From positions 62,001 through 126,000 of the forward strand of contig NZ_JAAEAA010000015.1 in the NCBI RefSeq assembly GCF_010119545.1: DNA of 64,000 bases, given 5' to 3'. Positions 24,158 through 32,831 of the stretch are shown one piece after another. This DNA is from Pontibacter fetidus (GTDB taxonomy: Bacteria > Bacteroidota > Bacteroidia > Cytophagales > Hymenobacteraceae). Within the stretch, counting starts at the first letter, position 1. The number at the start of each line of letters is the position of its first letter. The notes under the pieces are model-generated. The model was given only the letters and a program-made list of their open reading frames with translations, was not told where the DNA came from and searched no databases. A program made the translations under genes and the position numbers.

Positions 24158-24445
24158 ATGTTTGGGAGGAACTACATTTTGACACAATTTGGTTTGATAG
24201 TTACACCATATAATGAATCACACTTACATTTTTCGAAGAAAAGTATGGAAAGAGATCATAATACGATAAGGGTTGGAATTTGTAAATATACAAGTAGAAA
24301 AGTTCTGCAACTAAGGGACTTCCCTTCAAACGATGCAATAGATGAAAAAGGCTGGCTATGTTTACATGATGATACTGAAGAAGAAGAAATTCAAAATATA
24401 ATTAAATTTCTTTACGGCATTGACATAGAAATTCATAATAACTAA
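24158..24445 (+). CDS. hypothetical protein in AT-rich island
   Basis: A 95-residue acidic protein with no family I recognise and no signal peptide. Visible features are RVGICKYTSRKVLQLRDFP in the middle and an acidic stretch DDTEEEEIQ near the end. Codon use is strongly AT-biased, unlike the neighbours on either side. Its stop overlaps the start of the HNH gene by one base (TAATG), so it belongs to the same transcript and may act with it, for example as an accessory, antitoxin-like or specificity protein (speculation). Confidence 0.6.
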   Translation: MFGRNYILTQFGLIVTPYNESHLHFSKKSMERDHNTIRVGICKYTSRKVLQLRDFPSNDAIDEKGWLCLHDDTEEEEIQNIIKFLYGIDIEIHNN

Positions 24446-25083
24446 TGACAAAAGTAGATGCAATAAAGCAAGTTTTAGAAGATAATGGTGGTGTTGCAAT
24501 TTGGAGTATCATATATAACCAAATAGAAAAGTATTATCCTAATATAAAAAACCAAAAGGATTGGAAAGCCGGAGTTCGTGGTGTTTTATATCGCGATTTA
24601 GGTAAAAATTTCAAAATGGTTGATGAAGGAGTGATAGCATTATTATATTATGATGAAAATAATCTTGCATTAACAGAGGACATACAGGATACATCAAAGG
24701 CTATTCAAGTAAAAGTTAGAATAGGTCAGGAAAAATTTAGAAGAAAATTATTAAAATATTTAAAATTTTGTCCAATCACAGGTATTGATGATAAACGAAT
24801 TTTACTTGCAAGTCATATTAAACCTTGGGCATTATCTTCAAACGCTGAAAGATTAGACCCTAATAATGGTTTCATCTTTAGTCCAACCATAGATAAACTA
24901 TTTGATAAAGGATTAATAACTTTTGAAAATAATAAAGAGTTAATTGCTTCTCCTGATCTGTCGATAAACAATATTAAAAAGATTGGATTGCAAGTAGGTA
25001 AAAAATATTCAAAGCTCCCAGTAGATAGTAGAACATCCTATTTAGAATATCATAGAAACAATATTTTTATTTCTGAGTTATAA
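24445..25083 (+). CDS. HNH endonuclease with N-terminal HARE-HTH-like domain
   Basis: A 212-residue protein. Residues 1-70 (TKVDAIKQVLEDNGG, then AGVRGVLYRDLGKNF) resemble the HARE/winged-helix domain found on restriction enzymes. Residues 100-200 match the HNH_2 nuclease: FCPITGIDD, the histidine in LLASHIKPW, then RLDPNNGFIFSPTIDKLFDKG. This is the layout of modification-dependent or solitary restriction nucleases. Translation is coupled to the upstream 95-residue gene. Low GC and atypical codons point to horizontal transfer. No methyltransferase gene is nearby, so it may be methylation-dependent or an orphan. Confidence 0.8.
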   Translation: MTKVDAIKQVLEDNGGVAIWSIIYNQIEKYYPNIKNQKDWKAGVRGVLYRDLGKNFKMVDEGVIALLYYDENNLALTEDIQDTSKAIQVKVRIGQEKFRRKLLKYLKFCPITGIDDKRILLASHIKPWALSSNAERLDPNNGFIFSPTIDKLFDKGLITFENNKELIASPDLSINNIKKIGLQVGKKYSKLPVDSRTSYLEYHRNNIFISEL

Positions 25084-25088
25084 CTAGC

Positions 25089-25367
25089 TTGAAGAATTTT
25101 TATTTCAACATTTTAAAATTTAATTTATCGGATTTCTATGGTGGAGAAATAAGTAAAGGTTTCATAGAAATTTATCATACTAAACCCATCTTCACCTATG
25201 AAAATGAAGACCTTGAAAGTACGCTTGGGAATGCAGTAAAAAACTTAACACCTGTATGCTCCAATTGCCATCGAATGATCCATAGGAACTGGAATAAACT
25301 AGTTGAGATTCAAATACTAATTAATAGTATAAACGCTAACGGAGTATTTAAAAGATTTAATAGATAG
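25089..25367 (+). pseudogene. C-terminal remnant of a second HNH endonuclease
   Basis: The open frame (92 residues, possible TTG start at 25089) contains the right half of a McrA-like HNH domain: GFIEIYHTKPI followed by LTPVCSNCHRMIHRNW, in which CxxC-H is intact. The upstream CxxC zinc pair expected before FxxxYG is missing (Phe/Leu instead), the family's N-terminal domain is absent, and the first histidine pair reads YH rather than HH. A decayed gene is more likely than a working enzyme. Confidence 0.6.
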
Positions 25368-27136: not shown

Positions 27137-27169
27137 AAAAGTCCCCCTTTGAAGGGGGCAGGGGGATGA
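27137..27169. repeat. inverted repeat, left end of DUF559 element A
   Basis: 33 bases identical to the reverse complement of 27554-27586. The core is a hairpin, CCCCCTTTGAAGGGGG, followed by CAGGGGGATGA. It ends two bases from the stop codon of the DUF559 gene. Confidence 0.9.
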
Positions 27170-27170
27170 G

Positions 27171-27536
27171 CTACTTTTGCGAACTTTCAATCCAGCCAAT
27201 TATAACACGCTCCACATTCGGCAGATCTTTCATCACTTCAGTATCAGAAAACCTGAGTGTAGTATACCCTAAATCAGCAATCTCTTTATCCCGTTCTAAA
27301 TCTTCTTCAGTTTTAAAATTGTGTGAGTAGCCATCTACTTCAATAACCAGTTTCAGCTCCTTGCACAAGAAATCAGCAATATAGTTACCAATAGGACGCT
27401 GCCGCAGAAAAGTATAACCAGTTTTACCTTTACTAAGAACTTCACACCATAATCGCACTTCTGCTTTTGTAGATTCTTTTCGGAGCGATCTTGCAAATGG
27501 CTTTAGGTTTTGGTTGTAGTGATTGTTGTTTGGCAT
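27171..27536 (-). CDS. DUF559 protein (Vsr/PD-(D/E)XK-like nuclease fold), element A
   Basis: A 121-residue protein. Residues 15-40 carry the family start SLRKESTKAEVRLWCEVL, then FLRQRPIGNYIADFLCKE and LKLVIEVDGYSHN, in which Asp, Glu-Val-Asp and His match the active-site set of very-short-patch-repair (Vsr) and related PD-(D/E)XK nucleases. The end reads MKDLPNVERVIIGWIESSQK in two parts. About 40% of positions match the second copy at 32382-32747 by eye. No methyltransferase or mutS/mutL gene is nearby, so a Vsr repair role is not suggested; the flanking inverted repeats suggest a role in the element itself. Confidence 0.82.
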   Translation of the reverse strand: MPNNNHYNQNLKPFARSLRKESTKAEVRLWCEVLSKGKTGYTFLRQRPIGNYIADFLCKELKLVIEVDGYSHNFKTEEDLERDKEIADLGYTTLRFSDTEVMKDLPNVERVIIGWIESSQK

Positions 27537-27553
27537 AGCTCATGGTGCGTTTG

Positions 27554-27586
27554 TCATCCCCCTGCCCCCTTCAAAGGGGGACTTTT
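27554..27586. repeat. inverted repeat, right end of DUF559 element A
   Basis: Exact reverse complement of 27137-27169. Starts 17 bases upstream of the DUF559 start codon and ends in the T-run ACTTTTTTG. Confidence 0.9.
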
Positions 27587-32271: not shown

Positions 32272-32342
32272 ATTTGTGGTGAACTATAGCATTAGGCTAT
32301 AAATTTGGATTGTAGAGTATAACTTTTAAATGAGCAGGGAAC

Positions 32343-32377
32343 AATTCCCCTCTTGAGAGGGGTTAGGGGTGTGTTTA
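32343..32377. repeat. inverted repeat, left end of DUF559 element B
   Basis: 35 bases matching the reverse complement of 32745-32779 with one mismatch (GGGGTTAGGGG against GGGGCTAGGGG). The core is the hairpin CCCCTCTTGAGAGGGG followed by TTAGGGGTGTGTTTA. It ends four bases before the DUF559 start codon. Confidence 0.9.
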
Positions 32378-32381
32378 CATT

Positions 32382-32747
32382 ATGAGAGAACACATACCAT
32401 ACAAACCATACTTAAAAGAACTAGCTAGGCAACTTCGTAACAATAGCACGCTAAGCGAGGTACTTCTATGGCAAGAATTGAAAGGCAGCAAAATGCTGGG
32501 CTTTGACTTCCATCGCCAGAAGCCACTCGATAATTTTATAGTTGATTTCTATTGTAGTGAATTGAAACTGGCTATTGAGATAGATGGAGATTCACACAAC
32601 TATAGCTTTGCAAAAGACACTGCACGTCAGCAACAATTAGAAAGTTTTGAGATTTATTTTCTCCGATGTACTGATTTGGAAGTTAAACAGAATATGCCAA
32701 ATGTTTTGCGGACTATAGAGTGCTGGATATTGGATCAGCAAAAGTAA
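32382..32747 (+). CDS. DUF559 protein (Vsr/PD-(D/E)XK-like nuclease fold), element B
   Basis: A 121-residue protein, the same length as the element A copy. Shared landmarks in order: QLRNNSTLSEVLLWQELKG, FHRQKPLDNFIVDFYCSE, LKLAIEIDGDSHN (with the Asp, Glu, Asp and His of the nuclease site) and NMPNVLRTIECWI. The stop codon is the first three bases of the right inverted repeat and the start codon is four bases from the left one, so the gene fills the element completely. A function in repeat movement, nicking or spread is plausible but unproven. Confidence 0.82.
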   Translation: MREHIPYKPYLKELARQLRNNSTLSEVLLWQELKGSKMLGFDFHRQKPLDNFIVDFYCSELKLAIEIDGDSHNYSFAKDTARQQQLESFEIYFLRCTDLEVKQNMPNVLRTIECWILDQQK

Positions 32748-32779
32748 ACACACCCCTAGCCCCTCTCAAGAGGGGAATT
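32745..32779. repeat. inverted repeat, right end of DUF559 element B
   Basis: Reverse complement of 32343-32377 with one difference. Its first three bases are the TAA stop of the DUF559 gene. Confidence 0.9.
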
Positions 32780-32831
32780 ATGACCTACTTAACTTAGCTA
32801 TATTGCTTTGAAGGCAAGTATTCGGCAAGCT

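Follow-up and report, generated by a model that had tools for sequence, protein, structure and literature searches.

The window, i.e. the whole stretch of 64,000 nucleotides from Pontibacter fetidus that was analysed, contains two small genes encoding DUF559 proteins, each of which is enclosed by a pair of inverted repeats. The two elements are composed as follows:

27137-27169, + strand: type A repeat, tail towards the DUF559 gene; composed of a Y arm at 27143-27148 (CCCCCT), a loop at 27149-27152, an R arm at 27153-27158 (AGGGGG), a linker at 27159-27160 and a third strand at 27161-27166 (GGGGGA)
27171-27536, - strand: DUF559 gene, 121 aa, predicted Vsr-like nuclease fold (PD-(D/E)XK type)
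27554-27586, - strand: type A repeat, exact inverted copy, tail towards the DUF559 gene
32333-32381, + strand: type B repeat, upstream of the gene at 32382-32747, with its motif core at 32347-32371
32382-32747, + strand: second DUF559 gene, 121 aa, 44% identity to the first
32741-32789, - strand: type B repeat, overlapping the 3' end of the gene at 32382-32747, with its motif core at 32751-32775

Both proteins match the Pfam family PF04480 (102.4 bits for the first and 93 bits for the second, at a curated cut-off of 20.6). The original prediction had placed the first gene between perfect 33-bp inverted repeats, 17 bases from one at its start side and one base from the other at its stop side, and this is borne out: the arms 27137-27169 and 27554-27586 measure 33 nt, are 100% complementary and are separated by 384 nt, a space filled by the open reading frame 27171-27536 (- strand). 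With up to three mismatches allowed, the 30-nt core of this repeat matches these two arms only (100 shuffles: no match). Its 16-nt hairpin core has, with at most one mismatch, 58 matches genome-wide, 35 of them exact, a count in which one palindromic site is scored on both strands (reversed control: 0). The type B pair (49 nt, 88% complementary) is unlike the type A pair in sequence. All eight DUF559 matches of the source genome (8/8) lie between inverted repeats of the same architecture, which belong to six sequence types. Boxes of types A, B, C and F (exemplified by L003) are directed inward, with their tails facing the gene; those of types D and E (exemplified by L005) are directed outward, with their tails facing the flanks. 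Elsewhere in the window, two adjoining open reading frames on the + strand (24445-25083 and 25089-25367), which lie in different frames, look like one split nuclease gene, the latter containing the HNH-like stretch VCSNCHRMIHR.

According to an AF2 model of high confidence (pLDDT 90.5) the DUF559 protein adopts a Vsr-like nuclease fold and would presumably cleave DNA. The closest solved chain is NGO0050 (3hrl, Z 15.5), followed by the EDxHD homing endonuclease I-Bth0305I (Z 12.6) and Vsr (1cw0, Z 9.7, rmsd 2.3, 98 aligned residues), while the similarity to Hjc (Z 7.5) may reflect a mere common arrangement. We know of no repeats which box the genes of I-Bth0305I or Vsr. Among 74 DUF559 sequences F43, F56, E66, D68, G69, H72 and D79 are invariant, and E26, D55 and others nearly so. 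As judged from codon comparison the gene is under strong purifying selection, with dN/dS values of 0.05-0.17 in the 9/28 orthologue pairs with measurable dS. A defence system was considered and rejected: PADLOC returned nothing for the first window protein and one weak match (E 0.0017) for the second.

Repeat architecture and related elements

All repeats follow the order pyrimidine arm, short loop, purine arm, linker of 2-3 nt and G-rich tail. When the tail is placed parallel to the pyrimidine arm, G comes to stand opposite C, and A or T opposite T, the pattern required of a third strand that folds back to form a purine-motif triplex of class II (Holder et al. 2015, PMC4666352). A scanner demanding a Y arm, a complementary R arm and a third strand running antiparallel to the latter (G on GC, A or T on AT) returned four motifs in the whole 64-kb window. 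They constitute two pairs, each around a DUF559 gene, and all four satisfy the class II rule with 6/6 triplets each; no motif turned up in any of five sequences shuffled in 2-base blocks. Judged from sequence, the window repeats fit the class II triplex motif and belong to the same class as BoxC/PIT/TM, their folding being predicted.

In the aligned repeats, tail and stem covary in register, both across and within repeat types. For 41 unique arms the parallel match between arm and tail amounts to 0.911, compared to 0.799 +/- 0.013 for permuted tails (0/2000 as high). The reversed mapping likewise exceeds its permutations, but less strongly (0.773 vs 0.722 +/- 0.012), as would follow from the run length shared by arm and tail. 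Among the 25 unique units of type E the tail bears A or T in 29/34 cells opposite an arm T and in 11/91 opposite C (p 1.6e-14, the cells not being independent since the variants are related and columns are shared). Shifts of the register by -2, -1, +1 and +2 yield p 0.29, 0.8, 0.028 (a depletion) and 0.11, respectively, and antiparallel mapping yields p 1. The in-register A/T positions appear to fit a third strand better than a G-quadruplex. For the class II motifs described earlier, triplex formation was found in vitro, with TMECO demonstrated as an isolated strand, but was undetected by an in vivo footprint (PMC4666352); the covariation of arm and tail provides evolutionary evidence for selection of the three-strand fold.

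With BoxC/PIT/TM(ECO) the repeats share the order of Y arm, R arm and third strand, a second loop of 2-3 nt (such as TTA, CCG or CTG) and their occurrence as intergenic inverted pairs in many, strain-variable copies. One triplex motif type was catalogued in 262 proteobacterial genomes and the motifs were linked to variable loci; that study reports no transposase or integrase remnants around TMECO sites, draws no link to mobility genes and contains neither the word DUF nor the word endonuclease (PMC4666352). Unlike TMECO, the window repeats have other sequences and depart from its consensus, CCCTCNCCC N3-6 GGGNGAGGG N3 GGGNGAGGG.

REP/RAYT systems consist of an enzyme gene boxed by a palindromic repeat which is present in solo and paired copies across the genome, and the lineages of enzyme and repeat are matched. 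The DUF559 genes resemble them in that the repeats enclosing them are cognate and also occur, singly or in pairs, in many copies elsewhere. They differ from them in that a putative Vsr-like nuclease (PF04480) and no Y1/HUH transposase is encoded between the repeats, and in that these repeats possess a third strand. A GTAG or CGTC tag is a feature of REP/RAYT repeats (PMC3733652); neither tetranucleotide occurs in the 33-bp type A repeat. The hairpin and the G-run tail which had initially been read as REP architecture are present, but it is the class II triplex motif to which the repeats conform. The accompanying claim that no such element had been described requires a similar division. As the repeat class is already known from Holder et al. 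(PMC4666352), only its pairing with DUF559 is apparently new, as far as searched: we found no paper linking DUF559 to any repeats, with subscription journals and bioRxiv lying outside the search and absence therefore unproven.

Occurrence of boxed genes, repeat types and solo copies

PF04480 matches are present in 46/50 Pontibacter genomes. The genus census comprises 142 rows, from which one duplicate and 23 broken, short or edge rows were subtracted to give 118 full-length DUF559 genes, six weak places having been left out. An inverted pair (score at least 16) surrounds 105/118 of them, compared to 2/176 other open reading frames of the same loci (one of the two being the DUF559 box of L006, seen again via the duplicate locus L119) and 1/299 random spans. 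Among the broken, short or edge rows, 16/23 are still boxed. The explicit motif is found on both sides of 77/116 genes and on at least one side of 97/116, the figures for other open reading frames being 1/231 and 26/231. Chance or artefact was rejected by means of the shuffles, the reversed-pattern controls and the gene controls.

A further, named set, to which one genome scan contributed 80 loci, the best of a longer match list, covers Bacteroidota, Balneola, Ignavibacteria, Planctomycetota, Sphingomonadaceae, Geobacter and others. Of its 83 rows 13 were dropped as fusions, fragments or edges, leaving 70, of which 69 entered the motif count. Among the matches listed, 34/70 genes show an inverted pair, 27/69 motifs on both sides and 53/69 a motif on at least one side. 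Since about eight of these records are Pontibacter entries shared with the genus set, we recounted without them. Outside the genus, again among the matches listed, an inverted pair surrounds 27/62 DUF559 genes vs 1/262 other open reading frames; motifs lie on both sides of 23/61 vs 2/291 and on at least one side of 49/61 vs 20/291, and 12/61 DUF559 genes have no motif on either side. The association of DUF559 with the repeats therefore extends well past the genus, yet it is not universal. Boxing of homologues, as implied by the original prediction, is accordingly the rule in source genome and genus and merely common beyond.

Within the genus each nuclease clade has, as far as can be read from the tree, its own repeat type in an almost perfect match. 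Placed on the nuclease tree, which is built from few columns and has many open forks, the seven repeat types demand 7 changes (minimum 6), while shuffled types demand 69.4 on average (0/200 as low); 3/116 proteins lack a typed repeat. On the basis of flanking proteins the 113 typed genes fall into 39 site clusters, with types A, C and D present in 11, 11 and 13 of them, respectively; clustering by linkage may merge or split sites, and 7 clusters contain more than one type. Because the typed genes are spread over so many sites, the match of clade and repeat goes beyond co-inheritance at a single place. Plain terminators were rejected as an explanation, since they would give neither a common sequence across loci nor clade matching.

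Solo copies of the repeats, which reach dozens in a genome, are scattered between genes. Type A matches occur in 44/50 genus genomes (up to 59 each), type D matches in 46/50 (up to 205, some sites being scored on both strands) and type E matches in 39/50, with reversed controls of 0 in all three cases. Type A cores avoid open reading frames of at least 130 aa (0/30 vs 416/600 random positions). At most one type A copy is found in 0/20 genomes with the matching nuclease vs 9/30 without it; the corresponding values are 0/28 vs 6/22 for type D and 1/19 vs 12/31 for type E (Fisher p 0.005-0.009 for the three, kinship ignored). Nine nuclease types were assigned via the nearest protein, some of them doubtfully, and one of these is the single exception of type E. 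Rank tests of repeat number against the matched nuclease yield p 0.041 (A), 0.0016 (D) and 3e-5 (E); against the mismatched B2 nuclease they yield p 0.007, 0.0015 and 0.034. Many genomes harbour repeats without the matching nuclease, and G039 and G304 harbour repeats without any DUF559 match. The exact type B motif is present in 3/296 genomes of the phylum, G304 being one of them. This distant Bacteroidota genome contains two exact type B motifs (e.g. L370). Several type A solo repeats of the source genome (L009-L038) have in common more extended AT-rich surroundings in which AACTATAG-like words flank the repeat on either side, perhaps another repeat family.

In Escherichia coli K-12, for which 23 TMECO copies are listed (PMC4666352), the end of ycjD, annotated as DUF559, lies 167 bp from TMECO no. 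9 (Table 1 of PMC4666352). By chance 0.003 TM sites would be expected in a span of 167 bp, this span having been chosen after the fact. The TM copies beside ycjD match the TMECO consensus. No motif is found on the 5' side of ycjD in K-12; strain HYM1 has two intact motifs at ycjD, one of which overlaps the end of the gene. Among the listed strains, the median number of motif places is 4 in the 25 with ycjD vs 2 in the 14 without (p 0.004). The strains are related, 5/14 without ycjD have 4-5 places and row H40 was left out, rendering a higher motif number in the presence of ycjD suggestive only. The family search found no DUF559 in the E. coli among its 14 control genomes, so that the gene need not be present in every E. 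coli.

Filled and empty sites

At argS-gpx, two genes which are adjacent in 30/30 genus genomes examined (of 50), 8/30 contain a boxed nuclease and one a remnant. The remaining 21 contain a repeat, a partial repeat, a different repeat type or nothing; the scanner detects a motif in 4/21 of these, and by eye partial and type C repeats missed by the scanner are recognised in addition. A clean insertion was looked for at this site in the 30 genomes and was not found. Of the 7 genomes compared at the window's type B site (source genome included), 3 have the site filled, one retains a remnant and 3 lack the element. At both sites the sequence pattern is one of inheritance and decay and not of fresh insertion.

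In genome G263 about 185 aa are inserted in-frame into IcmF. This insertion contains the nuclease, flanked by two directly oriented motif doublets of 89 bp which agree in 80/89 positions. IcmF was matched in 11 further genomes (26 searched), all of which lack the insertion. MetH contains an insertion of about 150 aa in 2/5 genomes. DUF559 is furthermore found within or fused to predicted frames of HsdR, a UvrD-like helicase, an Eco57I-type enzyme and a GATase_5 protein, and further predicted hosts are coproporphyrinogen oxidase, RNase P protein and CutC. At L372, L374, L377, L383, L386 and L080 DUF559 lies inside, or ends, frames of large conserved proteins. Palindromic elements residing in-frame within protein genes are also described from Rickettsia; unlike those elements, which comprise about 150 bp and encode a short peptide, the present ones code for a nuclease between the repeats (PMC10969869). 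Judging by MetH and IcmF, in-frame insertion may be a route by which proteins acquire extra domains.

Orthologous sites without the element, which the original prediction led one to expect, hence occur at argS-gpx, at the type B site and in IcmF. By eye no target duplication is seen at IcmF or at hrpB-mrcB of E. coli, the flanks at these sites having diverged. Between hrpB and mrcB, K-12 has a motif doublet of about 104 bp which is absent from Ecol_244 and E1739 and reduced to a single hairpin in two other E. coli strains. At L361, L363, L364 and L365 of E. coli, deletion between paired motifs leaves one hairpin. The fabI-sapF interval is not a clean empty site for ycjD, two strains without ycjD having other genes there.

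Possible roles of the nuclease

A pairing of the DUF559 nuclease with a triplex-type repeat is strongly supported. What the comparison brings to light is the boxing of the genes, clade-specific repeats, scattered intergenic copies, filled and empty sites and a conserved relation between arm and tail. The nuclease probably spreads or maintains the repeats, the two forming a selfish or domesticated two-part system comparable to REP/RAYT. Its matched parts would be a small DUF559 nuclease of Vsr fold and a family of class II triplex-type repeats peculiar to that nuclease. The nuclease would recognise the folded repeat on single-stranded or strained DNA and cut in or near it, whereupon host repair or replication would copy a solo repeat, a doublet or the whole unit elsewhere. 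The mode of working would thereby resemble that of REP/RAYT, with an unrelated enzyme. A point against this explanation is that a nuclease alone cannot join DNA, and the sites compared revealed neither a target duplication nor an exact mode of insertion. The pattern of inheritance and decay at the two window sites, the repeats found without their nuclease, the rank-test association with mismatched B2 nucleases and the DUF559 genes without a motif outside the genus likewise speak against it. We propose tentatively, as a possibility somewhat short of even, that the nuclease reads the triplex form itself. With the same reserve, and leaning slightly to the side of doubt, BoxC/PIT/TM and their relatives might be regarded as non-autonomous copies which are unrelated to REP/RAYT and whose sole enzyme is DUF559, recognising its cognate triplex. 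If true, this would amount to a natural partnership of enzyme and triplex and to a class of mobile elements unrelated to REP/RAYT. Triplex-type repeats have so far had no known route of spreading and no known function; the matched nuclease is a candidate mover, readily testable in E. coli K-12.

Alternatively, DUF559 could be a housekeeping or repair nuclease acting on mismatches or odd DNA, with the motifs serving as its own regulators or terminators and the repeats being spread otherwise. The Vsr-like fold, the strong purifying selection and the vertical inheritance at argS-gpx agree with such a role, as does VsrA of Caulobacter, a protein with a DUF559 domain which was reported to be responsible for the SOS response in methylase-less cells and was proposed to be a Vsr-like (mismatch) repair enzyme (PMC12907096). 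That report points to cleavage of DNA in vivo by proteins of this kind. We nevertheless consider a pure repair function unlikely, as it leaves unexplained the clade-matched repeat types at many sites, the hundreds of solo copies and the in-frame insertions of nuclease and doublets in IcmF and MetH.

Somewhat less probable still is a gene behaving like that of a homing endonuclease, which cuts empty alleles and is copied in by repair, the repeats being landing sites or scars. This would be in line with the close match in fold to I-Bth0305I, with clean in-frame insertions missing from relatives and with the lack of visible target duplications, but solo copies are far more numerous than nuclease genes, doublets are found at sites of their own and single types occupy up to 13 site clusters. 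Homing-like behaviour could, however, be combined with the spreading or maintenance of repeats by the DUF559 nuclease which we prefer.

That a RAYT or another transposase moves the repeats, with the DUF559 gene as a passenger in repeat-rich spots, is highly improbable: Y1 transposase matches do occur in 43/50 genus genomes, but 0/12 RAYT-type (Y1) loci of the genus carry the triplex motif on both sides (one weak one-sided match), 6/7 genomes without a Y1 match still have 10-34 type A repeats, and a passenger gene would not match its repeat type to its clade. The RAYT/REP parallel with a different protein, as drawn originally, hence persists as an analogy only, with a Vsr-like fold in the enzyme. 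An inverted pair is present at 6 of the 12 Y1 loci, 4 of these pairs consisting of a GCTGGCGCGAGCTTG-type repeat. The Y1 transposase genes L346, L347, L349 and L351 are boxed by a GCTGGCGCGAGCTTGCAGCTCGTGCC-type repeat and apparently form a REP/RAYT system of their own within the genus.
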